DNA of 32,799 nucleotides, from positions 1 through 32,799 of the forward strand of contig CAKZJK010000098.1 in assembly GCA_936942565.1 (NCBI GenBank), read 5' to 3'. Every line of letters begins with the position of its first letter. Positions within the stretch are counted from its first letter, which is position 1. The notes under the pieces are model-generated. The model searched no databases and was not told the DNA's origin. It saw only the letters and a program-made list of their open reading frames with translations. This stretch comes from an uncultured Caulobacter sp. Its GTDB lineage: Bacteria > Pseudomonadota > Alphaproteobacteria > Caulobacterales > Caulobacteraceae. Shown piece after piece: positions 6,589 through 22,939 of the stretch. The position numbers and the translations under genes are program-made.

Positions 6589-6715
6589 CGCCGATCTGAC
6601 CACCCGATCCGCGAGAAGCCACGCCCGATGCGCCGCTCTATAAATCGACGGCCGCTCGAAAGCTGGACAGTACAAGTCGGCCGATGCGACCGACGAGCGC
6701 GGTGCGCCCCAGGCC

Positions 6716-6739
6716 TTACCGTCCTTTACGCCACTTTAC
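6716..6739 (+). promoter_or_regulatory. Three 10-bp-phased TTAC repeats (site A) upstream of OsmC-like gene
   Basis: TTACCGTCCT|TTACGCCACT|TTAC; TAGGCT (6763-6768) starts after 23 nt; start codon at 6832. Confidence 0.7.
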
Positions 6740-6831: not shown

Positions 6832-7362
6832 ATGCCAGAAGCCTCAACGACGAACGACCCTGACCTGGACGCCATCCTGGTGCGCGAGACCGGCGCGGGT
6901 CTCTTTCAGGTCGATATCCAGGCCGGCGGCGCGCATTTCATCGCCGACGAGCCAGTCGCGTTCGGAGGCATGGGGTCGGGCCCCGATCCTTACGATCTCC
7001 TGGCCGCCGCCCTGGGGGCCTGCACCACCATGACCCTGCGGCTCTACGCGCGTCGGAAGGCCTGGCCGCTTGAGACGGTTTCTGTGCGCGTGTCCCATGC
7101 CCGCGGAAACCTCGAGGCTCGTGACACCTTCACCCGCGAGGTCACCGTCACGGGCGCGTTGGACGAAGCTCAGCGCTCGAGGCTGGCCGAGATCGCGGAC
7201 CGCTGCCCGGTCCATCAGACGCTCGACCGCGGCGCGGACGTCGTCACCCGCTTCGTTACCCCCGCGGCGCCCGCTGGAGAGGCGGCGACGGGCCTTCACG
7301 CGCGCCACATGACCGAGGCGTGCGGTCCCGAAGCACGAGCCAGACAACACACCGCGTCCTAG
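6832..7362 (+). CDS. OsmC family protein
   Basis: GSGPDPYDLLAAALGACTTMTLRLYARRKAWPLE and ADRCPVHQTLDRGADVVTRF, both characteristic OsmC-like cysteine contexts. Confidence 0.88.
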   Translation: MPEASTTNDPDLDAILVRETGAGLFQVDIQAGGAHFIADEPVAFGGMGSGPDPYDLLAAALGACTTMTLRLYARRKAWPLETVSVRVSHARGNLEARDTFTREVTVTGALDEAQRSRLAEIADRCPVHQTLDRGADVVTRFVTPAAPAGEAATGLHARHMTEACGPEARARQHTAS

Positions 7363-7918: not shown

Positions 7919-8542
7919 GTGAGCCGATACAGCTTCCTCGACCTCGCCAGTTCGCCGAGCGTCAAAGCGGCCCAGGCCGAGATGGGCGTCGACCATCTGT
8001 GGGCGCCTGGACAGGTCGATCGCCCGATGGAGGCGTTCACCGCCCACGAAGGGGCCTTCATCGCCGAACGCGACAGCTTCTACATGGCCAGCGTCTCGGA
8101 GACGGGTTGGCCCTACGTCCAGTACCGAGGCGGGCCGCCCGGTTTCCTGAAGGTCATCGACGAGACCACGCTGGCGTTCGCCGACTTCCGGGGCAATCGC
8201 CAGTACATCAGCGTCGGCAATCTGGACGCCAATGACCGCGTGGCCCTGATCCTGGTCGACTACCCTCGGCGCGCCCGACTCAAGATCCTGGCCCACGCCG
8301 AACGTCTCCCGCTCGACGCCGACCCAGCTCTGATGGCGCGCGTGTCCGACCCCGGATATCGCGCCAAGCCCGAACGCATCTTCCGCCTGAAACTGGCCGC
8401 GTTCGACTGGAACTGCCCCCAACACATCGTGCCGCGCTTCACGGAGGCTGAGATCGCCAGCGCGGTCCAGCCGCTACGCGATCGGCTGGCGGCGTTAGAG
8501 GCGGAGAACAGCGCCCTGCGCGAGCGGCTCGCGGAGCGCTAG
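7919..8542 (+). CDS. Pyridoxamine 5'-phosphate oxidase-family flavin-binding protein
   Basis: GTG start; FIAERDSFYMASVSETGWPYVQYRGGPPGFLKVIDETTLAFADFRGNRQYISVGNLDANDRVALILVDYPRRARLKI is a PNPOx-like split barrel. Confidence 0.85.
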   Translation: MSRYSFLDLASSPSVKAAQAEMGVDHLWAPGQVDRPMEAFTAHEGAFIAERDSFYMASVSETGWPYVQYRGGPPGFLKVIDETTLAFADFRGNRQYISVGNLDANDRVALILVDYPRRARLKILAHAERLPLDADPALMARVSDPGYRAKPERIFRLKLAAFDWNCPQHIVPRFTEAEIASAVQPLRDRLAALEAENSALRERLAER

Positions 8543-9411
8543 GACAGGCGCCGATCCAGGAAATCGAGCATGTGGTCGGCGATCTCGCGCGCGTGGGTCT
8601 CCAGCGCGAAGTGTCCAGTGTCCAGGAAACACACTTCCGCTCCAGGCAGATCGCGACGGAAGGCCTCGGCGCCGGCCGGCAGGAAGAAGGGGTCCTTATC
8701 CCCCCAGACGGCCAGGAGCGGCGGCTGGCGCTCGCGAAAGTACTGGTGGATGCGAGGATAGAGCGCGACATTGCTGGCGTAGTCGGCGATCAGGCGAAGC
8801 TGGATTTCCGCGACGCCCGGCCGCGACATCAGGGCGTAGTCGAGCCAATAGCCCTCGGGTTCGACCTGTGTCTCGTCGGGCGCGCCGTGGGTGTACTGCC
8901 AGCGCGTGGTTTCCAGGGTGAACATGGTCCGCATCGCCTCGCGATTGGCCGGCGAGGGATCGGCCCAATAGGCTCTGGTCGGCGCCCAGCCATCGCTGAG
9001 CCCCTCCTCGTAGGCGTTGCCGTTCTGCGAGATGATCGCCGTGATCGCTCCGGGCCGAGCCATCGCCAGCCGCAGCCCCACGGGGGCGCCGTAGTCGAAG
9101 ACGTAGATGGCGTAGCGGGCCAGTCCGATGACATCGGTGAAGGCCTCGATCGTCGTGGCCAGGCTCGCGAAGCCGTAGTCGAACCCGGCCGGCGCGGTCG
9201 TGAAGCCAAAGCCCGGGAGATCGGGCGCGACCACGTGATAGCGATCCGCGAGGCGCGGGATCAGGTGGCGGAATTGATGGGACGACGTCGGAAAGCCGTG
9301 CAGCAGGAGGATCGTCGGATGTTCTCGACGGCCGGCCTCGCGATAGAAGATCGAGACGTCGCCGACTTCCGCGCGCCTCAGGACGATCTCGGTCTCGACG
9401 GACTTGGGCAT
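8539..9411 (-). CDS. Alpha/beta hydrolase, epoxide hydrolase/dehalogenase-like (cytoplasmic)
   Basis: HGFP oxyanion motif, VFDYGAPVG elbow (Asp), late Asp in WGDKDPFF, His in DTGHFALE. Start refined to the MPKSVETE methionine (9411); the ORF track extends to 9603. Confidence 0.9.
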   Translation of the reverse strand: MPKSVETEIVLRRAEVGDVSIFYREAGRREHPTILLLHGFPTSSHQFRHLIPRLADRYHVVAPDLPGFGFTTAPAGFDYGFASLATTIEAFTDVIGLARYAIYVFDYGAPVGLRLAMARPGAITAIISQNGNAYEEGLSDGWAPTRAYWADPSPANREAMRTMFTLETTRWQYTHGAPDETQVEPEGYWLDYALMSRPGVAEIQLRLIADYASNVALYPRIHQYFRERQPPLLAVWGDKDPFFLPAGAEAFRRDLPGAEVCFLDTGHFALETHAREIADHMLDFLDRRLS

Positions 9412-9467: not shown

Positions 9468-9491
9468 GTAAAGCGCGGTAAGGCGTGGTGA
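9468..9491 (-). promoter_or_regulatory. Three 10-bp-phased repeats (site B) upstream of the minus-strand hydrolase
   Basis: Minus strand: TCACCACGCC|TTACCGCGCT|TTAC; 57 nt from the start codon at 9411. Confidence 0.72.
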
Positions 9492-9514
9492 AGCGGTCGG
9501 ACGGAGCCGTCCGC

Positions 9515-11638
9515 TTACCGCGTGACCTGAAGCTCGATCCCCAGAACCCGAGGTGGCGTGATGCTGGCGCGAGGCTCGCCCAGCGTGGGGAAGGCGTGGC
9601 CAATGTATCGCCGGTCGGTCAGGTTCCGGCCAAAGGCCGTCACGGACCACCGTCCGCTAGCTCCGCGAAGCGTGACGCGGCCGTTGAAGACCTGGGTCGG
9701 ATCGCGGGAGAACAGGGCCAGTTCTCCGGGCTGATGATAGATGCGGCTGGCGTGGACGTATTCGGCGCGGAAGATCAGGTCTCCCCCCTCGGTCATGGGG
9801 TGGCGATACTGGGCGTTGAGATTGACCTGCGCCTTGGGCGCTCTGTTCAGCCGCCCTCCGGAATAGTCGACCTGTGAAACGGGATCGACGAAGTGCTTGT
9901 AACGCGCGTCGAGGCGCGCGGCGCTGGCGGTTATCTCCAGGCGTGGGGTCGGACGGACGGCGAGTTCGAGTTCGGCTCCGTCGATGGTGGCGGTCGCCGC
10001 GTTGCGCACGATCAGGAAGCCGAGGCTGTCGGTCGTCCTGACCTGAAGGTTGCGGTAGTCATAGTGAAACAGGCTCGCATTGACTCGCAGGCGGCCGCCC
10101 TGGGAGGCGTGCTTGAGACCCGCCTCGTAGGCCTGAAGGGTCTCGGGCTCGAAGACGTTGGGCTTGGGAGACGTGATCAGGCTGACGGACGTCGAGCCGC
10201 CGCTCTTGAAGCCCTTCGAATAGCTGGCGTAGGCCAACAGATCGTGGCGAGGCCGATACTCCACGCCCAGCCGCGGCGACAGACTGGACCACGTCGTCTT
10301 CTGGCGCGACGGCGGATAAGAAACAAACAGGGGCGGCAGGTCGACCGTGAACTGCTGAAGGAAATCGAACCGCTTCGACTCCCGGCTCCAGCGAAGCCCC
10401 CCCGAAACCGAAAGGGTGTCGGTCAGCCGATAGCGAGCGTCGCCGAAGACGGCCACCGCGACAGTGCGATTGGCCCCGGTGATGTGTTGCGTCGTCGGGC
10501 TGGGCAGACCGAAATTGGCCGTGAAATCGAGATAGATTGGACTTCGGGTGTTGGCCCGTTCGGTGAAGCCGTAGACACCGCCGAGCCATTGCAGGCGGCC
10601 CTCCCCGTCCGAAGCCACCCGCAGTTCCTGACTGAACTGGGTCGTGCGGTCGAATTGGCTGAAGCGGATGGCGTTCAGCGGCGAGGCGTCGGTGTCGATC
10701 ACGTTCGACAGCCTGGCCTTGCGATACCCGCTGATCGAGGTGACCCGCGCGCCGTTCAGGTCGTAGCTCGCCTCCAGCGCGGCGCCCCAGGTCCTTCGGT
10801 CTTCTCGCGGCGACGCATCCAGGGCGATGCGCTTCGGATCGAAGCTCGGGCTCGCGCTGTTGTGGAGCACGACCGGCATGTCGTGCTCGTTCAGGTCCAC
10901 GCTGATTTGAACGTCCAACGCCGCGCTCGGCCGCCAGCGCAGCGCGCCGCGGATGGTGAAGGTGCGCTGGGGATCCAAGTCCTTGCCCGTGAGAACATTG
11001 GTCGTATAGCCGTCGCGCCCGCTCGCCGCGAGCGCCAGCTTTCCAAACCATGCCCCGCCCAGCGGGCCCGCGACCAGCCCCTGCGCGCCCCAGACGTTGA
11101 AGCCGCCGACCCGCGCGCTCGCCTCCGCGGCGAGAACCTCGCTGGGTCGCCGGGTCACGACATTGATGGCCCCGCCCGTGGCGTTGCGGCCGTAGAGCGT
11201 CCCTTGCGGACCGCGCAGAACCTCGATCCGCTCGACATCCACCAGGTCGAAGAGATTCATGTATGGGCGCGCGAGATAGACGCCGTCGAGATAGATGGCG
11301 ATCGGCGCGTCCGCCCCGATGCCAAGATCGTTCTGCCCGACCCCGCGTATGGAAATCGGCACCGCGCCCTGCCCTTCGCCCGTGCCGATCGTCAGACCCG
11401 GCGTATAGGCCGCCAGATCGCTTATGTCGCGCACGCCGCTGCCGGAAAGTTGTTGGCTGGTAAAGGCCGAGACGGCCAGTGGCGTGTCCTGAAGCCGGGT
11501 CCTGAAGTGGGTCGCCGTTATGGTGATCTCGTCCACGCCGTCGTTGGACGATTGGGCGGCGCACGGCGTGGCCACGACACCGATCGCCAGAACCACGCCC
11601 GGCAGGGCGAACCCTCGACAATGGTTCGAGCCTCGCAT
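9515..11638 (-). CDS. TonB-dependent receptor
   Basis: Signal peptide (MRGSNHCRGFALPGVVLAIGVVATPCAAQ), plug motif (VDVERIEVLRGPQGTLYGRNATGGAINVVTRRPSE), C-terminal barrel. ORF track start is 11668. Confidence 0.94.
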   Translation of the reverse strand: MRGSNHCRGFALPGVVLAIGVVATPCAAQSSNDGVDEITITATHFRTRLQDTPLAVSAFTSQQLSGSGVRDISDLAAYTPGLTIGTGEGQGAVPISIRGVGQNDLGIGADAPIAIYLDGVYLARPYMNLFDLVDVERIEVLRGPQGTLYGRNATGGAINVVTRRPSEVLAAEASARVGGFNVWGAQGLVAGPLGGAWFGKLALAASGRDGYTTNVLTGKDLDPQRTFTIRGALRWRPSAALDVQISVDLNEHDMPVVLHNSASPSFDPKRIALDASPREDRRTWGAALEASYDLNGARVTSISGYRKARLSNVIDTDASPLNAIRFSQFDRTTQFSQELRVASDGEGRLQWLGGVYGFTERANTRSPIYLDFTANFGLPSPTTQHITGANRTVAVAVFGDARYRLTDTLSVSGGLRWSRESKRFDFLQQFTVDLPPLFVSYPPSRQKTTWSSLSPRLGVEYRPRHDLLAYASYSKGFKSGGSTSVSLITSPKPNVFEPETLQAYEAGLKHASQGGRLRVNASLFHYDYRNLQVRTTDSLGFLIVRNAATATIDGAELELAVRPTPRLEITASAARLDARYKHFVDPVSQVDYSGGRLNRAPKAQVNLNAQYRHPMTEGGDLIFRAEYVHASRIYHQPGELALFSRDPTQVFNGRVTLRGASGRWSVTAFGRNLTDRRYIGHAFPTLGEPRASITPPRVLGIELQVTR

Positions 11639-11758
11639 TCCCCCTCCCCCGACATCGGTGCAAGTCACCGCGCGGCCGGCGGCCCCATCCGCCCGCGCGA
11701 CCTCAGCCTAGCCCAGGCGCCCGCGCGACGTTGGGCGGTATTGGTCGCGCCGCGCTAG

Positions 11759-11787
11759 ACCATGGTCGAACGAAGCTCGACCATGGT
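11759..11787. repeat. Perfect 11-bp inverted repeat, possible operator
   Basis: ACCATGGTCGA-acgaagc-TCGACCATGGT, in the intergenic region upstream of the minus-strand TBDR. Confidence 0.7.
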
Positions 11788-11833
11788 TGAGGCATGGCGG
11801 CCAGCTTCGCGCCTGGGGCGACCCGCTCGCGCG

Positions 11834-12511
11834 TCAGGCGCCCGCTCTCGCCACCGCCTGGGCCTTTTGGAAGCTCTCCATCACGGCGACGTAGTTGGGC
11901 GCGACCAGACCATAGAGCTTGGCCAGTTCGGCGGCCTCGGGGCGGACCCAGGTGCGATGGAGTTCGCTCAGCAGGGCGTTGGTGGAGGTCGGCTTGACCC
12001 CGCCCTGGACAAAGCGGGCCAGGCTGGTGCGCGAGGCCATCTCGCTCGGATCGCCCGAGGCGTCGACAACGGCGTAGACGTCGTAGCCCGCCACCACCGC
12101 GTCGAGGGCGGGGAACATCACGCAGACACTGGTCCAGACCCCGGCCATGATCAGCGTCTTGCGGCCGGTGGCCTGGACTTGCGCGACGAAGTCGCCGTTG
12201 TCCCAGGCGTTCACCTCGCCCTTGCGGGATACGTAGATCGCGTGCGGAGCGTGTTCGTGAATCTCCGGCATCAGCGGTCCGTTCGATCCCGCCGGCTCGG
12301 ACGCGGTCGTGATCACGGGGATCTTCAGCAAGGTCGCGAGACGAGCGATCATTTCGACATTGCGTCGAAGATCGGCCACGGGGATGTCCTTGACCGTCTG
12401 GAAGAGACCCGACTGGTGATCCAGCAGCAGGATCACCGCGTCGGCGGGGTTGATCAGGGCCGCGCCACCGCCCGTGGGCAGGACTCTCGATTTCTGGTTC
12501 GGCGACGTCAT
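11834..12511 (-). CDS. Isochorismatase-family (YcaC-like) cysteine hydrolase
   Basis: VILLLDHQSGLF (Asp), VSRKGEVNAWDNGDF (Lys), GVWTSVCVMFPALDAVVAGYDVYAVVDASGD (Cys). Start refined to 12511 (MTSPNQKSR). Confidence 0.9.
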   Translation of the reverse strand: MTSPNQKSRVLPTGGGAALINPADAVILLLDHQSGLFQTVKDIPVADLRRNVEMIARLATLLKIPVITTASEPAGSNGPLMPEIHEHAPHAIYVSRKGEVNAWDNGDFVAQVQATGRKTLIMAGVWTSVCVMFPALDAVVAGYDVYAVVDASGDPSEMASRTSLARFVQGGVKPTSTNALLSELHRTWVRPEAAELAKLYGLVAPNYVAVMESFQKAQAVARAGA

Positions 12512-12618: not shown

Positions 12619-12632
12619 GTAAAGCGCGGTAA
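12619..12632 (-). promoter_or_regulatory. Two 10-bp-phased TTAC repeats (site C) upstream of the isochorismatase-family gene
   Basis: Minus strand TTACCGCGCTTTAC, identical to the 14-nt cores of sites B and E. GAGACT (12595-12590, minus) starts after 23 nt. Confidence 0.65.
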
Positions 12633-12739
12633 ATTCCCGCGCCCAGCCCCGCATCATCTATTACGGCGGCGTAAAATTTCAGCGGCTTGATACAATAGTT
12701 CGACGCCAGCCCGATCCGCTGGACGCCAATTCATGGCCT

Positions 12740-12763
12740 TGACCGCGCTTTACCACGCCTAAC
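12740..12763 (+). promoter_or_regulatory. Three 10-bp-phased repeats (site D) upstream of the exported hydrolase
   Basis: TGACCGCGCT|TTACCACGCC|TAAC; TACTCC (12787-12792) starts after 23 nt; start codon at 12910. Confidence 0.65.
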
Positions 12764-12909: not shown

Positions 12910-13884
12910 ATGACCCGCCTGTTGACCTCTCTGGCGCTCGCCGCCGCCACCCTCGCGGTCGCGCCGCCCGTCCACGCCGCCACGGCTCCCAAGGCCGCCG
13001 TCAGCCGCCCGACGCCGCCCGTCATCCACTATCGTGTCGCCACCGTCGACGGCGTGAAGGTGTTCTATCGCGAGGCCGGCCCGGCCAACGGGCCCGTCGT
13101 GCTGCTGCTGCACGGGTTTCCGACCTCGTCGCACATGTTTCGCAACCTGATCCCGCTTCTGGCCGACAAGTATCGGGTCATCGCCCCGGACTACCCGGGC
13201 TACGGCCAGAGCGACGCGCCTGACCATACCCAGTTCTCCTACACCTTCGCCAACCAGGCGGACGTCATCGACAAGCTGGCGACCCAGCTCGGTCTCAAGC
13301 GCTACACCATGTACGTCATGGATTACGGCGCCCCGATCGGTTACCGCCTGGCGCTGAAGCATCCCGAGCGGGTCAGCGGCCTGATCGTGCAGAACGGCAA
13401 CGCCTACAACGAAGGCCTGCAATCACCGTTCTGGGATCCGATCAAGGTCTACTGGAAGGACCGCTCGCAAAAGAACCGCGACGCGCTGAACAACCTCGTC
13501 ACCCTGGACATCACCAAGTTCCAGTACACCGACGGCATGGGCGACGTGGCGCGGATCAGCCCCGACAACTGGGTGCACGACCAAGCTCTGCTGGACCGGC
13601 CAGGCAACCGCGACATCCAGCTGGACATGCTCGGTGACTACGGCTCGAACGTGCCGTTCTATCCCGACTTCCAGAAGTTCTTCCGCGATCGTCAGCCGCC
13701 GACGCTGATCGTCTGGGGCAAGAACGACAAGATCTTCCCCGAGGAAGGCGCCCACCCCTATCTGCGCGATCTGCCCAACGCCGAGATTCACATCCTCGAC
13801 AGCGGCCACTTCGCCCTCGAGGACCGTCTCGATGTGATGGCGCCGCTCATCCACGACTTCCTCGACCGGAAGGTCAAAAACTAG
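12910..13884 (+). CDS. Alpha/beta hydrolase, epoxide hydrolase/dehalogenase-like, with signal peptide
   Basis: [23 protein letters not shown] signal; [41 protein letters not shown] elbow (Asp); DSGHFALED (His). Paralogue of 8539-9411. Confidence 0.92.
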
Positions 13885-13906: not shown

Positions 13907-13935
13907 TATCCGCGATGCTCATCGCGTCGCGGATA
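13907..13935. terminator. Hairpin between convergent genes, possible bidirectional terminator
   Basis: TATCCGCGA-tgctcatcgcg-TCGCGGATA, perfect 9-bp stem; overlaps the 3' end of the winged-helix gene. Weak T tract. Confidence 0.5.
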
Positions 13936-14515
13936 TTTCGCCGAGATGCTTGGCGAAGATGTCCTCGATCCAGGCCTCGTCGCGCGGTGTCAGCTCCACG
14001 AACAGAACCCGACGCGGCGGCGCGCCGGCCTTCGCGGCGTCGGTGCCGTCGGGGAGCTCGATGACCCCCGACCGCATGGTCCGCGCCAGCAGGGCCAGGG
14101 CCTCCTCAAGGCCGCTTGGCATCGACGGGGCGGACACTGGTTCGACCTCCGCCGCGATGGCCCGAACCGAGACGTTCCCAGTCGTTGACGCCTCGCTCCT
14201 CTTCACGGGAGCGATGAAGCGGTAGCCACGACCATTCACGGTCGCGATGTACCTCGCGGCGTCGACGTCGTCGTTCAAGGCGCGGCGCAGCGCGGCGATA
14301 TGGACCTTGAGATTGCCCTCGACCACGGTGGTGCTGGGCCAGGCTTCTTCGATCAGCTCGTTCTTGGTCAGGACCTCGCCGGGCCGCTGGACAAAGGCGG
14401 CCAGGAGATCGAGCGCGCGGCATCCGACCCGAACCACCTCGCCATCCCTCAGGAGCAGCTGTCGCCCAGGCGCGAAAACGTAGGCGTCGAAGGAAAAGGA
14501 CGGCGCGGGGGTCAT
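13919..14515 (-). CDS. Winged-helix (OmpR/ToxR trans_reg_C-type) DNA-binding regulator without receiver domain
   Basis: RQLLLRDGEVVRVGCRALDLLAAFVQRPGEVLTKNELIEEAWPSTTVVEGNLKVHIAALRRALNDDVDAARYIATVNGRGYRFIAPV. C-terminus has no obvious receiver or TM segment. Confidence 0.9.
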   Translation of the reverse strand: MTPAPSFSFDAYVFAPGRQLLLRDGEVVRVGCRALDLLAAFVQRPGEVLTKNELIEEAWPSTTVVEGNLKVHIAALRRALNDDVDAARYIATVNGRGYRFIAPVKRSEASTTGNVSVRAIAAEVEPVSAPSMPSGLEEALALLARTMRSGVIELPDGTDAAKAGAPPRRVLFVELTPRDEAWIEDIFAKHLGEISATR

Positions 14516-14918
14516 GGAACCATGGCCCGGCGGGAGAGCGGACGAGCGGCCGCGGCGCGCGGAAGGGCGGATTTCGGAACGCTCGACACCCCACCCTCCG
14601 TTTTCAACCGAACCGGGAAAAGGTACCGCGCCGCGCCGGGGGGCTTCAATTTATCGATGGTCGCGCCGTGCTGGACGGAAGGCGAACCGTACTCGACCTT
14701 CGTCGAGTTGACGCCGCGGGCCGGCGAAGGCCTACCATCGATCTCGCGGAGAGCTGGCTGGCCAAGACGTCGGGCTCGCCGCTCTTGGGCGAAGCCCGCG
14801 CTCCCGTCCGGCGAACTAGACCATCGTCGAGCCTGGATAGTCCTTTGGTCGAGATGGAAGCCGCGGCGGGATCGCGCTAGGTTGCGCCACGCTGGAGAGT
14901 TAGGACAAAGGGCTCCTT

Positions 14919-17900
14919 TTGCCAACGCCGCACCTCAGCCACCCCACAGCCAAAAGCCTCGGACAGGACCCGCTCCTCGGCGACCTCGAGCGGCTGGGCG
15001 AGCTGTCGGACGCCTGGCTGGGCTTGGACCCGACCTCCATCGCCGAGAGCGTGCTGGAGACCTTGCTCGACATGCTGGCGCTGGACTTCGTGGGCCTTCG
15101 CTTCAGCGACGGCGCGCACGTCTTTCTGCGCGTCGGACAAGAGTTCGGCGCGATCGCCTCATTCGACGAAATCCGCAACGCCCTGCCCCCCGCGGCGGAG
15201 AGCGTGTCCCCCGACGACGTCGTGGTAATCGGCCAGGCCCCTGTCGCGGTGTTTCGATGCCCCTTGGGTATCGGCGCGAGCCTGGGCGAGATCATCGCCG
15301 GAGCGCGACGGCCGGGTTTTCCGGATTCGCTCGATCGGTCCAAGCTCAAGCTCGCCGCGATCCAGACCAGCCTCGCCTGTCGCGAGACGCGGGAGCTGAA
15401 TGATCGCAAGACGCCTCCCGACACTCGTGACAAGCCGCTGTCCGAGCAAGACCTGGCCGAGAGTGAGTGGCGTCTCAACCTGACCATCAACACGATCCCG
15501 ACCATGGCGTGGTCGACGACCGCCGATGGGCTGATCGACTTCTGCAACCAAAACTTCGTGGACTTCGTCGGTTGGACCGCCGAGGACATCAGCGGCCAAG
15601 GCTTCTGGCCGATCTTCCACCCCGACGACGTCGAGCATCTCCTGTCCGAATGGCAGGACATCATGGCGACCAAGCGCCCTCGCGATGTCGAGGGCCGCAT
15701 CCGTCGCGCCGACGGCGAATACCGCTGGTTCGTGCTGCGCCAGAACCCGCTGCTCGACGCCGACGGAAACGTGATCAAGTGGTACGGGGCCGGGGCCGAC
15801 ATCGAGGATCGCAAACGGGCGGAGCGGGCGCTGGAGGAGGCTCAGGCGGCCCTGGTGGCCAGCGAACGGAACCTCAACCTGATCATCAATTCCCTGCCCG
15901 TCCTGGTCTGGTCGGCCCGTCCCGACGGCAGCGCCGACTTCATCAATCAGAGCTGGCGAGACTATGCCGGCGAACCAGCGGACAAGATCCTCGAGTGGGG
16001 CTTTCTCGACCTCTATCATCCCGACGACGTGGAAGGGATGATGGAGACCTGGACGCGGGACATCACCCACGGCGACCAAACGGCGCTAAAGGGGCGCGTT
16101 CGCGGCGCGGATGGCCAGTATCGCTGGTTCTACTTCGCGGGCCGAAAGATCACCGACGCCAACGGCATGGTCCGTTGGTTCGGCGTGAACGTCGACATCG
16201 AGGATCTGCAGCGGGCCGAGGACGCGCTTCGGGCCAGCGAGGCGGCCCTGCGCGAGAGCGAACGGGCCTTGAACCTGATGCTCGACGCCATCCCCTGCAT
16301 GGCGTGGTCGGCCACGGCCGAAGGCCACGTCGACTCCGTCAACAAGCAGTTCGGCGACTTCGTGGGCATGACCGCCGAAGAGGTTCTACGGGCCGGCTTC
16401 CACGCCCAGTTTCACCCTGACGACGTCGACAGAATGTTCGTCGAGTGGAAGGCCATGATGGCCACGAAGCAAGGCGGCGACATCGAAGGCCGCTCGCTGA
16501 GGGCGGACGGCGAGTATCGGTGGCTGATGTGCCGCTGCAGCCCTCTGCTGAACACCGACGGAGACGTGGTTCGCTGGTACGGCGTCAACCTCGATATCGA
16601 GGATCGCAAGCGCGCGGAGGCCGCTCTGCGAGCGAGCGAGCAAAATCTCAGTCTGATCCTAGACTCGCTTCCGGTGCTGACGTGGTCCGCCAGGGACGAC
16701 GGCAGCGCGGATTTCGTCAACCAGCGCTACCTCGAGTACGTGGGCCTGCCGGCCGAGGACATCCTCGAGTTCGGCTTCGCCAACCTCCTTCACCCCGACG
16801 ACGTCGACGGCCTGATGGAAGATTGGAATGAAAAACAGAACGGCGCTCGCGTGTCGCTCGCCCAAGGCAGAATTCGTCGGTTCGACGGCGAGTATCGATG
16901 GTTCTATTTCTCGGGTCAGAAATTCGCCGACGCCAACGGCGCCGAGCGCTGGTTTGGGGTGAACCTGGATATCGAGGACCTCAAGCGCACCGAGGCGGCG
17001 CTCAAGGCCAGCGAGGCGGCGCTTCGCAGCAACGAGTTGCGATTGCAGCATATCATCAACGCGGTGCCGGGGCTCGTTTGGTCCGCCGACGCGGACGGGA
17101 CCATCACGTTCCTGAGCCAGCAGTACTTGAACTACATCGGTCTGGACGCCGAGCGGGCTCGTGAAGGCGGCTGGCGAGACGCGCTCCACCCCGAGGACGC
17201 CGAGGGCCTGTTGGCGGCGTGGGATCTGGCGTTCACCGAGGGGCGGGCCAACGAACATGAAGCCAGATTGCGCAAATCCGACGGCAGCTACCGTTGGATG
17301 TTGTTCCAAGCGAGCCCGTCGTTCGACGACGCGGGACGGCTCGCCGGCTGGTTTGGCGTCAACATCGACATCGAAAATCGCAAGCGCGTCGTCGAGGACT
17401 TGCGCCAAAGCCAGAACCATCTGGCTCACATGACGCGCATGACGGCCATGGGCGAACTGGCGGTATCGATCGCTCACGAGGTCAACCAGCCCTTGATGGC
17501 GATCGTCACCAACGCCGGGGCGTGTCTGAGATGGCTGAATGGCGAAGAGCCGGATTTGACGATGGCGCGTCAGGCGGCCGAGCGGATCGTGCGGGACGGA
17601 CACCGCGCCGGCGACATCATCACGAGCCTGCGTAACCTGGCGCGAAAATCCGCGCCGCGCATGGACAGCGTCCACCTGGAGCAAGTCATCCAAGTGGTGC
17701 TGGCGCTGCTCCAGGGCGAGCTGCAGCGCAAGGGGGTTGTCGCCAAGACGCAGCTTGAAATGGGCTCGCTGACCATCCTGGGCGACGTCACCCAGTTGCA
17801 GCAGGTGGTGCTCAATCTGGTCATGAACGCGATCGAAGCCATGGCCGCCCTCGATGACGGCCCTCGCCGGCTCACCGTGCGCGCTCAGGTTCGCAAGGGC

Positions 17901-18140
17901 GAGGCGCTGGTGAGCGTCGGCGACACGGGGCCAGGCCTTGGCGACGATACCGATCGACCGTTCGAAGCCTTCTTCAGCACGAAGGCCGAGGGCATAGGCA
18001 TGGGCCTGTCGATCTGCCGTTCGATCATCGAAGCGCACGGGGGCGAGATCTGGGCCTGCAACAACGGGACCAGGGGCAGCGTGTTCAGCTTCACCCTCCC
18101 TCTGGCGGAAAGAAACAGCGTTGATCGACTCTACAATTAA
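14919..18140 (+). CDS. Soluble multi-PAS sensor histidine kinase (about five PAS domains, HisKA, HATPase)
   Basis: TTG start as in the ORF track (uncertain). Five repeated PAS/PAC blocks from about 15462; HisKA MGELAVSIAHEVNQPLMAIVTNAGACLRWL; HATPase LNLVMNAIEAM, GDTGPGL, GIGMGLSICRSIIEAHGGEIW. No TM helices apparent. Confidence 0.93.
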   Translation: MPTPHLSHPTAKSLGQDPLLGDLERLGELSDAWLGLDPTSIAESVLETLLDMLALDFVGLRFSDGAHVFLRVGQEFGAIASFDEIRNALPPAAESVSPDDVVVIGQAPVAVFRCPLGIGASLGEIIAGARRPGFPDSLDRSKLKLAAIQTSLACRETRELNDRKTPPDTRDKPLSEQDLAESEWRLNLTINTIPTMAWSTTADGLIDFCNQNFVDFVGWTAEDISGQGFWPIFHPDDVEHLLSEWQDIMATKRPRDVEGRIRRADGEYRWFVLRQNPLLDADGNVIKWYGAGADIEDRKRAERALEEAQAALVASERNLNLIINSLPVLVWSARPDGSADFINQSWRDYAGEPADKILEWGFLDLYHPDDVEGMMETWTRDITHGDQTALKGRVRGADGQYRWFYFAGRKITDANGMVRWFGVNVDIEDLQRAEDALRASEAALRESERALNLMLDAIPCMAWSATAEGHVDSVNKQFGDFVGMTAEEVLRAGFHAQFHPDDVDRMFVEWKAMMATKQGGDIEGRSLRADGEYRWLMCRCSPLLNTDGDVVRWYGVNLDIEDRKRAEAALRASEQNLSLILDSLPVLTWSARDDGSADFVNQRYLEYVGLPAEDILEFGFANLLHPDDVDGLMEDWNEKQNGARVSLAQGRIRRFDGEYRWFYFSGQKFADANGAERWFGVNLDIEDLKRTEAALKASEAALRSNELRLQHIINAVPGLVWSADADGTITFLSQQYLNYIGLDAERAREGGWRDALHPEDAEGLLAAWDLAFTEGRANEHEARLRKSDGSYRWMLFQASPSFDDAGRLAGWFGVNIDIENRKRVVEDLRQSQNHLAHMTRMTAMGELAVSIAHEVNQPLMAIVTNAGACLRWLNGEEPDLTMARQAAERIVRDGHRAGDIITSLRNLARKSAPRMDSVHLEQVIQVVLALLQGELQRKGVVAKTQLEMGSLTILGDVTQLQQVVLNLVMNAIEAMAALDDGPRRLTVRAQVRKGEALVSVGDTGPGLGDDTDRPFEAFFSTKAEGIGMGLSICRSIIEAHGGEIWACNNGTRGSVFSFTLPLAERNSVDRLYN

Positions 18141-18771
18141 CGAAGACGCCGGGGCACGCTTTGTCGCCGTCATCGACGATGACGAAAGCGTTCGCGAAGC
18201 TCTCCGCGGACTTTTCCAATCGGTGGGGCTGCAAACCAAGATCTTCGGCTCGGTGCAGGCTTTCGTTGACGCGGGCGGATTGAAGCAAGCCGCTTGCATC
18301 GTGCTGGATATTCGCCTTCCCGGGCGCAGCGGCCTCGAATTCCTCGAGGTCCTGGCCAGAAGCGGCGCGGCCCAGTCGGTCGTGCTCATCAGCGGCCATG
18401 TCGACGTCCAAATGGCCGTTCGCGCGATGAAGGCCGGCGCGGTCGATGTCCTGACCAAGCCAGTGCGCGAGCAGGATCTTCTCGAGGCGGTGAACAGAGC
18501 CATCGGCGCGGATCAGCAGCGTCGCGAGGAGGCCAAGGGCGACGCGGCCTTGCGCGCGCGGCGCCAGAGTCTGTCCGACCGAGAGCGTCAGGTTTTCGCT
18601 CTGGTGGCGGCGGGATTGCTCAACAAGCAAATCGCCCAGCGTGTCGCGATCACCGAAGCGACGGTGAAACTGCACCGCAGTCAGGTCATGAAGAAAATGG
18701 GGGCCGAGTCACTGCCCGATCTGGTGCGCATGGCCGACCGGCTGGCCAAGACGGACGGCTCGGAGCACTAA
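18121..18771 (+). CDS. FixJ-like response regulator with LuxR-type HTH
   Basis: VAVIDDDESVREALRGLFQ, IVLDIRLPGRSGLEFLEVL, ISGHVDVQMAVRAMKAGAVDVLTKP, LSDRERQVFALVAAGLLNKQIAQRVAITEATVKLHRSQVMKKMG. TTG start overlaps the kinase 3' end. Confidence 0.92.
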   Translation: MIDSTINEDAGARFVAVIDDDESVREALRGLFQSVGLQTKIFGSVQAFVDAGGLKQAACIVLDIRLPGRSGLEFLEVLARSGAAQSVVLISGHVDVQMAVRAMKAGAVDVLTKPVREQDLLEAVNRAIGADQQRREEAKGDAALRARRQSLSDRERQVFALVAAGLLNKQIAQRVAITEATVKLHRSQVMKKMGAESLPDLVRMADRLAKTDGSEH

Positions 18772-18820
18772 CCCGGCGGGAGACGGCGGCGAGGCCCGGC
18801 CCCACCACCGTCATGCGGCG

Positions 18821-19789
18821 CTAGGCCTCGTTCATGAAGCCGCGCAGGAGCGCGTTATATCGCTCGGGCTTCTCATTCATCGTCAGGTGCGAGCAGCCCG
18901 CCATCACCGCGAGCCTGGCGCGCCCCGCGACGCCGTCGCGCAGGGTCTCGTGGCAATCGAGCGTCACTTCATCGAACTCGCCGGTGGTGATGAGCGTGGG
19001 CTGCGTGATCGCCTTGAGGTCCTTGCGACGGTCCCAATCCTTGATCTTTCCGACGATGGTGAATTCGTTGGGGCCATTGAGAACACGGTAGGCCGGGGAC
19101 TTGGCGAGCGCCTCCAGCGTCGCCACCACCTCCGGAGTCGGCGGAACCCGAAGCACGAAGTTGTCGTAGAACGCCTGGACCAGCTCGGCATATTCGGGGG
19201 TCCCGGTCTTGCCGGCCTTTTCCAGAGCGTGGATCTTGTCGCCCCATCCGTTTGGCATGGTCGCGAAAAGGCGTTCGAAGCCCGCGATGACTTGCGGGAT
19301 GCTGGCCATGGCTCCGCTGAGGACCAGGCGCTCAACGCCCGCGCCCCGCCCCTGACAGAGGTATTCGACCGCCAGCAGCGCGCCCCACGAATGGCCAAGA
19401 AGAACGACCCGGTCCAAGCCCAGGGCGGCGCGGACGGCGTCCACCTCGTCAACGGAACGCTGGATCGAATAGGCGCTATCCTCCTCGGGCGCGTCGGCCC
19501 TGCCGCATCCAAGTTGATCGTAGAAGATCACCGGACGCTCGTCGGCCAGCGCTTGAAGCGGCAGCAGGTATTGGTGAGAGGACCCTGGCCCGCCGTGCAG
19601 GGTCAGAAGCGGTGTCTTGCCGCCCGCGCCGAACTTTCGCCAATAGATTTTCCCGCCGGGGACCTGGGCGTAGCCCTCGGATCGCGGAACGCCCGCCAAG
19701 GCCTGGCTAGACGGCAAGGCCAGGCCGGCGCCCAGAAGACCGGTCGCGGCCTTCAAGGCGCCGCGTCGCGTGAACCCATTGTTCGTCAT
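18821..19789 (-). CDS. Proline iminopeptidase-like alpha/beta hydrolase with Tat-type signal
   Basis: MTNNGFTRRGALKAATGLLGAGLALPSSQALAG; LLTLHGGPGSSHQYLLPLQAL; LLGHSWGALLAVEYL (Ser nucleophile); GCSHLTMNEKPE. ORF track start is 19987. Confidence 0.88.
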   Translation of the reverse strand: MTNNGFTRRGALKAATGLLGAGLALPSSQALAGVPRSEGYAQVPGGKIYWRKFGAGGKTPLLTLHGGPGSSHQYLLPLQALADERPVIFYDQLGCGRADAPEEDSAYSIQRSVDEVDAVRAALGLDRVVLLGHSWGALLAVEYLCQGRGAGVERLVLSGAMASIPQVIAGFERLFATMPNGWGDKIHALEKAGKTGTPEYAELVQAFYDNFVLRVPPTPEVVATLEALAKSPAYRVLNGPNEFTIVGKIKDWDRRKDLKAITQPTLITTGEFDEVTLDCHETLRDGVAGRARLAVMAGCSHLTMNEKPERYNALLRGFMNEA

Positions 19790-20007
19790 GATGGAAACTC
19801 CTGATGATCGTGAGAGGTCGCTCGCGCCGGGATGCGATCTAGCCCGCGGCTTCCGCCGCCGCGAGCGAGGCCTTGGAAACTCAAGGTTTCCGAGATTGTC
19901 CGTTGCGTGGAACCATTGACCGAGGGTTTCGGCGAACGGCATGGCCTTGGCTTGAATGGATCGGTCTATTGCCGGTCTCGCCGGCAAGGACCGGGAAACT
20001 CTAGACT

Positions 20008-20031
20008 TGACGGGCCTTTACCGCGCTTTAC
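20008..20031 (+). promoter_or_regulatory. Three 10-bp-phased repeats (site E) upstream of the AraC regulator
   Basis: TGACGGGCCT|TTACCGCGCT|TTAC; TAGTCT (20055-20060) starts after 23 nt; start codon at 20094. Confidence 0.72.
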
Positions 20032-20093
20032 GCGCGGGCGGCGCCCCATGCGCCTAGTCTCGCCGGTGAACATCTACGCTAGCGAGAGAGCCC

Positions 20094-20561
20094 ATGGCCC
20101 AGCTTGAAACCACACGAGGCCTTCGCGCGGACGTCGCGCGCCTGCCTCCCTCGCGCGCCGAACAGACAGCGGCCGGCGGGCGTTTGTCGCGCTGGGAAGG
20201 CCTGCTCCCCTGGCAGGTCCGACGGGTTCTCGATTATATCGAGAACGGCCTGAATGGCCGCCCCTCGATCAAGATCGCGGCCGAACACGCTAGGCTGAGC
20301 CCCAGCTACTTTTCCCGCCGCTTTCGCCAGTCGTTCGGCGTGACTTTCGCCCAGTTCGTCGCGCGCCGACGCATCGCGCGAGCCCAGGCAATGATGGTCC
20401 GAAGCAGCTCGAGTCTTTGCCAGATCGCGCTGGCCTGCGGCTTTACCGACCAGGCTCACTTCACGCGCACATTCGGAGGATTGACCGGCGCGACGCCCTC
20501 GCGGTGGCGCAGGAGCGCCATCCGGCCAATCGGGCAAGCCGAAGCCATGGGCTGTTGCTAG
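20094..20561 (+). CDS. AraC-family transcriptional regulator (DNA-binding domain only)
   Basis: VLDYIENGLNGRPSIKIAAEHARLSPSYFSRRFRQSFGVTFAQFVARRRIARAQAMM and LCQIALACGFTDQAHFTRTFGGLTGATPSRWRR; two HTH motifs and no sizeable sensor domain. Confidence 0.92.
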   Translation: MAQLETTRGLRADVARLPPSRAEQTAAGGRLSRWEGLLPWQVRRVLDYIENGLNGRPSIKIAAEHARLSPSYFSRRFRQSFGVTFAQFVARRRIARAQAMMVRSSSSLCQIALACGFTDQAHFTRTFGGLTGATPSRWRRSAIRPIGQAEAMGCC

Positions 20562-20651: not shown

Positions 20652-22939
20652 TTAGAAGCGCCTGCGGACCTGGAAGCCGGCCGTGCGCGGATTGATGCTG
20701 ACGACCTGCTTGGGGTTGTTGACCGCGGACGTCACGCTCATCAGGCCGACTTCGTCGGTGATGTTGTTGACGAACACGTAGGCGCCCCAGTCCGAGCCTT
20801 CGACGCCGGCGCGCACGTTGGCGTAGCCGTAGTCGCCCTGCTTCTCGTAGTAGACATAGGTCGGGCGGAACTGCGAGGCGGACTCGCCGACATAGGCGTA
20901 GTCGGCGCGCACTAGGCCGTTCAGATCGCCCTTGAGCGGCCAGGTGTATTCGACCGAGGCCGAACCGCTGTACTTGGCCACGTTCGGGAACTCGTCGCCG
21001 CGCAAGCCGGTCGAACCGGTGATCAGGATCGTGGAATTGGCCTGGTCCTCGGTCAGCTTGGCGTCGACGACGGCGGCGGTGCCGTTGATCGTCAGACCGG
21101 GGATCGGACGGGCCGTGGCCTCGATCTCGAAGCCCTTGATCTTGGCCTTGCCGGCGTTGGTCAGGTAGCTGAAGGCCCCGTTGGCGCTGGTGGCCGAGAT
21201 CTGCATGTTCGACCAGTCGATCTGATAGGCCGCCGCGTTCAGCGTCAGGCGACGATCAAACCACTGGCTCTTGATGCCGCCTTCGTAGTTCCAGAGGCTG
21301 TCGGGCTGATAGGCCAACAGCGCGCTGGCCAGGCCCGGCACGTTGTTCGCGCCGCCCGGACGGAAGCCCTTGGCCGCCACTGCGTAGACCATGACGTCCG
21401 ACGTGACTTGATAGGACGCGTTCAGCTTGCTGACCCAGCCATCGGCGCTGGCGTCGACTTGAGCGGCCGGACCGACGTAGGACTGGGTGATGAAGTTGCT
21501 GATCAGGACCTGACCCGAGACGGTCTTGTCGTACTTGAAGCGACGCAGGCCGCCGGTCAGGGTCAGCTTCTCGATCGGCTTGTAGGAGACTTCGCCGAAG
21601 AAGGCGGTCTGCTTGGTCTCGGTGCCGACGTGGCGCCAGGCGGTCAGGTCGTTGGGGTTGATGATCCCGGTGGCGGCGTCGCCCTTGGCGACCTTGCTCT
21701 CGATATAGTCGTCGCGCTTCTCGAGATAGACGCCGGCCGTCCAGTCGACCTTGTCGTCGAACAGCGAGCCGTTCGCGCGGAGCTCATGGTTCCACGAGGT
21801 CAGGCCCATCGGCTGATAGAGCGCGCCGGGCGTGCGGCTGTCGGCATAGGCGGTGAAGGCGGTCAGCTGAGCGGCGGTGCAGGCCGGGCGGCCGGTCCGC
21901 CGGCGACCCAGTTGCGGCACGCGGTGGCGTTGGCGCGGCTGCCCGAAAGCGTCGGGCTGTAGTCCGAATTCCGCAGCAGGGTCCATTTGTAATAGGACGA
22001 GGTCGCCGTGATGGTGGCGAAGTCCAGGTCCCACTTGCCCGTAAGGTTGTACATGCGCAGGTTATCGCTGGTCGGCGCGATGACGCGGGCGTTGGTCTTG
22101 TACTCTTCCTTGCCCAGCGCCGGGTACCAGGTGTTCTGACCGTCCAGAGTGGTCTTCTGATAGAGGCCCGAGGCGTTGATCGTCAGGTTCTCGGTGGGCG
22201 TGAAGCCCAGCATCAGGCGACCGCCGCTGGAGTGCTGGTCGTTGATGTCCTTCTTGTTCAGCAGAGCATCGTCGACATAGCCGCCGCCCTCGGTCTTGTA
22301 GAGCACCAGGCGCGCGGCCAGCTTGTCCTCGATCAGCGGCACGTTGACCATGCCCTTGACCGAATAGCCGTTGCTGCCGCCCTTGACGCTCGTGCCCTGG
22401 GCCTCGACCGCGCCGGCGTAGCGGCTGCTGTCGGGCTTGTTGAGGATGACCCGCAGCGTGCCGCCCATCGAGCCCGAGCCATAGAGGGTGCCTTGCGGGC
22501 CGCGCAGCACCTCGACGCGCTCGGCGTCGAACAGGTTGACGTCGGCGCTGGTCGAGCTGGCGTCGGCCGTCGTGCCGGCCGGGCCAGTCAGCGGGGTCTC
22601 GTCGTAGTAGAGGCCCACCGTGGCCTCGCCCGCGCTGCGCACGCCGCGCAGGGTCAGGCGGCGGCTGGTCGGCGAGTTGCCGTCGACCTGCAGGTTCGGC
22701 ACGGTGCGGAAATAGTCCTGGATGCCCGAGGCGCCGAGCGCCTGCAGCGACTTCTCGGTGACCGCGCTGACGCTGATCGGGGTGGTCTGGACCGTGGTCG
22801 AGCGCTTCAGCGCGGTGACGACGACTTCCTCGATCGTGGCGCTGTCGGACGCTTGCCGGGCGAGCGCTTGACCCGCCGCCAGGCTGCTGAGCGCGCTGGC
22901 GCCAAGGGCCAGGGCCCGAAGGCCTCGGAACTGCATCAT
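20652..22939 (-). pseudogene. TonB-dependent receptor gene split by a frameshift (or assembly/sequencing error)
   Basis: N-terminal half (22939-21863: signal peptide, plug, FDAERVEVLRGPQGTLYGSGSMGG) and C-terminal half (ORF 22034-20652, ending ...INPRTAGFQVRRRF) are in different frames. Continuity CRNWVAGG / PACTAAQLTAFTAYADS breaks at about 21880-21905, consistent with one missing base. Confidence 0.82.

Follow-up and report, generated by a model that had tools for sequence, protein, structure and literature searches.

A candidate two-tier circuit joining a FixJ-like two-component system to a receiver-less winged-helix regulator in Caulobacter

Several described systems resemble parts of the locus reported here. 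Phosphorylated StyR binds inverted repeats, with the strongest binding near -40 (PMC2442086), and the kinase TodS contains an internal receiver in addition to two kinase modules (PMC4861429). Among winged helix-turn-helix (wHTH) regulators, HilA has no membrane segment, and VtrA-VtrB of Vibrio is a case of one regulator switching on a second wHTH regulator (PMC5693285). SARP/AfsR proteins place an OmpR-like wHTH on direct repeats near -35, and their large forms are fused to NB-ARC (PMC7040171). The published CpxR box is GTAAA-N5-GTAAA (PMC4846824, PMC9600279). In this study, we analysed a stretch of 32,799 nucleotides (nt) from an uncultured Caulobacter sp. (contig CAKZJK010000098.1; the whole stretch is hereafter the window) with respect to the regulatory genes at 13919-20561. 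An earlier sequence-only reading had placed four regulators there (a winged-helix protein, a soluble multi-PAS kinase, a FixJ-like regulator and a minimal AraC protein), and Pfam and hydropathy analyses bear this out. With slightly better than even confidence, we propose that they form a two-tier circuit, in which the kinase would phosphorylate the FixJ-like regulator, the latter would act through a palindrome on the wHTH gene, and the wHTH protein would act through direct-repeat boxes on enzyme genes and araC.

The wHTH gene (13919-14515, minus strand) encodes 198 amino acids (aa) whose sole Pfam domain is Trans_reg_C (9e-18), and the protein has no N-terminal receiver domain. No transmembrane (TM) segment of the ToxR/CadC style was found after the wHTH (highest 19-residue hydropathy, 0.98). 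The protein had been read from the sequence as lacking both features, and that description holds. In its AlphaFold model, the DNA-binding domain (about residues 6-105) is confident and the tail is low-confidence; the pLDDT is below 50 for most of residues 109-175, which makes a structural reading of the tail impossible. Foldseek matched the protein to ToxR, CadC, PhoB and CpxR domains, which identifies an OmpR/PhoB-type fold; the closest folds are the DNA-binding domains of ToxR and CadC. Pfam detected neither BTAD nor NB-ARC/TPR domains in the protein, and no BTAD in its NB-ARC-bearing paralogues. Because the receiver, the TM segment of ToxR/CadC and the BTAD of SARP proteins are all missing, we classify it only as an OmpR-type wHTH protein.

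The kinase gene (14919-18140, plus strand) is divergent from the wHTH gene, has a TTG start and encodes a PAS histidine kinase of 1073 aa with PAS_3 in five stretches, HisKA and HATPase_c in Pfam, an H box (HEVNQPL at 853) and N and G boxes. It has no clear TM segment (maximum 19-residue hydropathy, 1.59). The gene of the FixJ/NarL-type, StyR-like response regulator (18121-18771, plus strand; 216 aa; Response_reg 1.4e-23, GerE 2e-20) overlaps it by 20 base pairs (bp). The receiver of this regulator contains the acidic pocket, the phospho-Asp and the Lys (DDDES at 19, LDIRLPG at 62 and TKPV at 112), and its nearest solved structures are 1yio (1e-43), which we take to be StyR, and FixJ 5xso (1e-36). 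The fourth protein, encoded at 20094-20561 (plus strand; 155 aa), consists of an AraC-type DNA-binding domain only (HTH_18 4.5e-22; HTH_18/HTH_AraC without an effector domain). It has the two helix-turn-helix layout of SoxS and MarA, and its NCBIfam matches to SoxS, MarA and RamA fall below the cut-offs of those families.

Five promoters, those of osmC, two alpha/beta hydrolase genes, a YcaC-like hydrolase gene and araC, hold two or three head-to-tail YTTAC repeats with a period of 10 bp. Box A (CTTAC-N5-TTTAC-N5-TTTAC; 6715-6739, plus strand) lies upstream of osmC (6832-7362), and box B (TTCAC-N5-CTTAC-N5-TTTAC; 9468-9492, minus strand) upstream of the alpha/beta hydrolase gene at 8539-9411. 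The double box C (TTTACCGCGCTTTAC; 12619-12633, minus strand) precedes the YcaC-like hydrolase gene (11834-12511), the triple box D (TTGAC-N5-TTTAC-N5-CTAAC; 12739-12763, plus strand) the second alpha/beta hydrolase gene (12910-13884), and the triple box E (TTGAC-N5-TTTAC-N5-TTTAC; 20007-20031, plus strand) araC. That there are five box-bearing units, one of them araC itself, had been noticed from the sequence, and the boxes prove to be real: TTTACN5TTTAC with at most one mismatch matches seven times in the window (0.10 expected), and none of 100 shuffles reached seven. The exact double box occurs in three copies in the whole 4.2-Mb genome, all inside the window, and reversed-pattern controls gave 0. 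Because this genome is a draft (676 contigs; 91.6% complete, 5.2% contamination), the absence of additional boxes is provisional. The triple pattern was found again at the same promoters of orthologous clusters when 390 Caulobacteraceae genomes were searched. At five promoter classes, about 21-22 nt separate the end of the last repeat from a conserved -10-like block (CCTAG, CTATTCC, GAATTGTC, CATCGTC), a spacing that would suit an activator standing in for the -35 element. The reverse complement of the box, GTAAA-N5-GTAAA, is the CpxR box. CpxR is an OmpR-type wHTH protein, and direct repeats of 10-11 bp fit proteins of this type.

The wHTH protein is the likely box binder, favoured over AraC by the geometry of the box and by an association of wHTH genes with boxes beyond Caulobacter. 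The wHTH alone was used to retrieve 63 loci, by a pattern that covers its recognition helix; these hold 17 occurrences of the double box and 11 of the triple box, and reversed controls gave 0 for either. In Caulobacter, Inquilinus and Neoroseomonas, wHTH relatives whose locus has no AraC match (within 10 kb) show boxes in their divergent promoters; several of these boxes are about 90-165 bp upstream of the wHTH relative and on the opposite strand. Fifteen of 57 wHTH upstream regions scored p<=0.05 for the box. A search over all repeat periods picked out period 10 in the regions preceding wHTH genes (combined z 5.94), whereas GC-matched control windows showed no such signal at this period (-0.38). 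Of 44 exact boxes outside the orthologous clusters, 8 have a wHTH homologue no more than 5 kb away (0.19 expected) and 3 have an AraC homologue at such a distance (0.18 expected). In genome G268, the wHTH has diverged to 49% identity and the boxes read TTCAC instead of TTTAC. An H to N change in the recognition helix was considered as the cause and rejected, since G266 and the boxed paralogues also have N and keep TTTAC.

It is also possible, though unlikely, that the box binder is AraC. In that reading, box E would serve its autoregulation, it would switch on the enzyme genes, and the kinase, the FixJ-like regulator and the wHTH protein would act elsewhere. A box is present in the sense promoter of nearly every araC orthologue. 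In other genera, however, boxes accompany wHTH relatives in loci devoid of an AraC match, and both G091 and the rhizobial locus L199 have boxed hydrolase genes with no araC orthologue nearby. Three direct repeats of 10 bp are also more suited to an OmpR-type protein than to an AraC monomer. The araC gene is thus probably a box-bearing target.

Several points weigh against the proposed circuit. G056 retains the box and araC without a close wHTH (best identity, 43%). G266 retains boxes and araC without the kinase, the FixJ-like regulator or a short wHTH; the same cluster encodes a wHTH fused to an NB-ARC ATPase. A sense-promoter box is present in 12 of 30 AraC homologues. This frequency and G056 are compatible with AraC as a target and also with AraC as an autoregulator. 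No box occurs in the wHTH's own promoter, and an autoregulatory box sought in wHTH orthologues was not found. Other periods reach a combined z of about 4.3 in control windows, so that the period test taken alone is modest. Finally, the p-values, E-values and counts given here ignore shared ancestry, and the wHTH set includes near-duplicate loci (L214/L216 and L229/L232). The sequence-only reading had suggested checking the co-occurrence of these genes with the box; the association of wHTH genes with boxes extends beyond Caulobacter.

In the two Caulobacter genomes checked, the divergent gene beside a boxed wHTH paralogue encodes a TonB receptor. In L042:14840-18980 and L089:2978-7868 the box lies between the two genes; Pfam finds an NB-ARC ATPase domain in L042, and the wHTH of L089 has 484 aa. 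A similar wHTH-NB-ARC protein is encoded in a hydrolase cluster without kinase and FixJ (L092:4709-7828). The boxed wHTH promoters of L214 ('Mycobacterium sp. KBS0706') and L216 (Inquilinus limosus) are almost identical; the first of these records may have a wrong name or be contaminated.

How the wHTH protein receives its signal had been left unclear. A conserved palindrome in its promoter suggests an answer, namely that the signal reaches it through the transcription of its own gene, which the FixJ-like regulator would control. The 16-bp palindrome CTNGACNNNNGTCNAG is present, with at most one mismatch, in the divergent wHTH/kinase promoter of all 10 Caulobacter genomes that have full-length wHTH and FixJ orthologues, and in several of them it also occurs near the kinase start, in some cases there as a pair with a distance of about 21 bp. 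In the window, the copy in the wHTH promoter (CTCGACGAAGGTCGAG, 14692-14707), the proposed FixJ-like site, ranks with the best-conserved 16-mers between the two genes (0.87 vs an intergenic mean of 0.64). The kinase promoter contains a second copy (CTCGACGATGGTCTAG, 14816-14831) and, 22 bp from it, a degenerate one that is better preserved in relatives (CTCGACCAAAGGACTA, 14838-14853). Two further copies, 21 bp apart, lie upstream of the TonB receptor gene at 9515-11668 (CTAGACCATGGTCGAA, 11755-11770; CTCGACCATGGTTGAG, 11776-11791). We assign the palindrome provisionally to the FixJ-like regulator because the nearest structure of this protein is presumably that of StyR and because phosphorylated StyR binds inverted repeats.

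Of 75 Caulobacter genomes, 10 have a full-length wHTH orthologue, and exactly these 10 have a FixJ orthologue. In L199, of the order Rhizobiales, the identical palindrome precedes the wHTH gene and the FixJ orthologue has 78% identity; in two other rhizobial genomes with FixJ homologues of 65-66%, a related palindrome pair lies upstream of the kinase gene. The L199 contig carries the kinase, FixJ and wHTH genes and a hydrolase gene (89%) with box and palindromes, and this content suggests transfer between orders. In G138 and G082, a kinase of another type is found with a NarL-type regulator and a wHTH of 191-192 aa. That such a set recurs speaks for FixJ/NarL-type regulators being coupled to short wHTH proteins. 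These second sets are at L054:10052-14510 and L052:9876-14341, in two Caulobacter genomes, and their kinases have Reg_prop/Y_Y_Y/HisKA_3 domains.

A somewhat less probable alternative than AraC as box binder is that the FixJ-like regulator and the wHTH protein act in parallel on separate targets, that their co-occurrence reflects inheritance as one cluster and that the palindrome belongs to another regulator. Neighbouring genes of any mobile cluster would be expected to co-occur. The palindrome is also common by chance, at about 1-2 copies per genome, which counts against our proposal; as a genome-wide marker of a FixJ regulon it was rejected, since most matches are chance-like and lie in genomes without a FixJ orthologue. 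Nevertheless, it stands out as one of the best-conserved blocks in an intergenic region that is otherwise little conserved, it is kept in another order, and the kinase, NarL-type and short wHTH set recurs elsewhere. It is very improbable that the FixJ-like regulator, although it is the kinase's partner and always accompanies the short wHTH, binds the boxes directly as a single-tier two-component system with the wHTH as a side target, since G266, G270 and G056 keep boxes and have no FixJ orthologue, its closest solved relative (1yio, taken to be StyR) is of a type that binds inverted and not direct repeats, and palindromes lie at the wHTH/kinase promoter instead.

From the genes and DNA sites observed in the window, their conservation, positions and spacing, and their co-occurrence, we infer the following order for the two-tier circuit. 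The soluble kinase may sense an intracellular signal and phosphorylate the FixJ/StyR-like regulator. The phosphorylated regulator would bind the palindrome in the divergent promoter and raise the expression of both wHTH and kinase; in this strain, it may also bind the palindromes before the TonB receptor gene. The wHTH protein would then bind the YTTAC repeats just upstream of the -10 element and activate osmC, the alpha/beta hydrolase genes, the YcaC-like hydrolase gene and araC, whose product may serve as a third-tier or amplifying regulator. The sequence-only reading had drawn a cascade from the kinase and FixJ-like protein to the winged-helix protein or AraC. The idea of a cascade is kept and its steps can now be tentatively ordered, with the wHTH favoured at the boxes and AraC possible there.

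The enzymes encoded in the cluster are OsmC-type peroxiredoxins, haloalkane dehalogenase-like and proline iminopeptidase-like hydrolases, a YcaC-like hydrolase and a flavin-binding PNPOx-like protein, which suggests a detoxification-like role in the handling of reactive or xenobiotic small molecules. Between the FixJ-like gene and araC lies a fifth gene, omitted from the sequence-only reading, which encodes an alpha/beta hydrolase (18821-19789, minus strand) and carries neither box nor palindrome. Relatives keep an extra hydrolase gene between box D and the hydrolase gene at 12910, whereas in the window box D directly precedes the latter. The segment 12790-12834 appears to be the scar of the deleted alpha/beta hydrolase gene; its frame ends in GDLIALAAGASK followed by a stop codon and resembles the C-terminus of the extra hydrolase intact in relatives. 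A TonB receptor gene at 20652-22939 (minus strand) reads as two frames that overlap (20652-22034 and 21863-22939), and this frameshift may be real or an error of the draft assembly. The closest named relatives of the source genome are the Caulobacter species C. zeae, C. hibisci and C. endophyticus.

We suggest tentatively, at a little short of even confidence, that receiver-less wHTH proteins with the recognition helix NLKV[HN]IAA form an undescribed proteobacterial regulator family. Its members would read the CpxR-like GTAAA-N5-GTAAA and receive varied inputs, either through fusion to an NB-ARC ATPase or, as here, through two-component transcriptional control that replaces a sensor domain. 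A wHTH protein with neither receiver nor TM segment could thus obtain its signal through its own expression, which would answer the question left by the sequence-only reading. If this is true, two readable DNA codes, the palindrome and then the direct-repeat box, would allow target prediction for a regulator family that is widespread in Caulobacter and other Proteobacteria and little studied, and the locus would show in simple form how a two-component system drives a second-tier activator.

A full-text literature search for this gene set in Caulobacter gave no match, and a FixJ-like regulator placed over a wHTH with two DNA codes was not found in the literature searched. The described systems compare with the locus part by part. 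StyS/StyR and TodS/TodT, which control aromatic hydrocarbon genes, likewise combine a PAS-type kinase with a FixJ/NarL-type regulator; here, however, the proposed target of the palindrome is a second regulator and not a catabolic operon, and the kinase differs from TodS in having five PAS stretches and one kinase module. CpxR, OmpR and PhoB have the DNA-binding fold in common with the wHTH protein, and the box is that of CpxR on the other strand, but the wHTH protein has no receiver domain and the likeness of the box does not make it a CpxR. ToxR and CadC, its closest folds in the PDB, also have an N-terminal wHTH and differ by their transmembrane segment. In function, HilA sets a precedent for a soluble wHTH regulator and VtrA-VtrB one for a wHTH turned on by another regulator; here, however, the regulator proposed to act above the wHTH is FixJ-like and belongs to a two-component system, and the wHTH has only a short, low-confidence tail. 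The NB-ARC fusions of SARP/AfsR proteins recur in paralogues of the wHTH, while the wHTH itself has no BTAD, and the repeated unit of SARP sites is a heptamer followed by a 4-bp spacer (period 11). Every part is therefore of a known kind, and the arrangement, with a FixJ-like system on top and two DNA codes, looks new.

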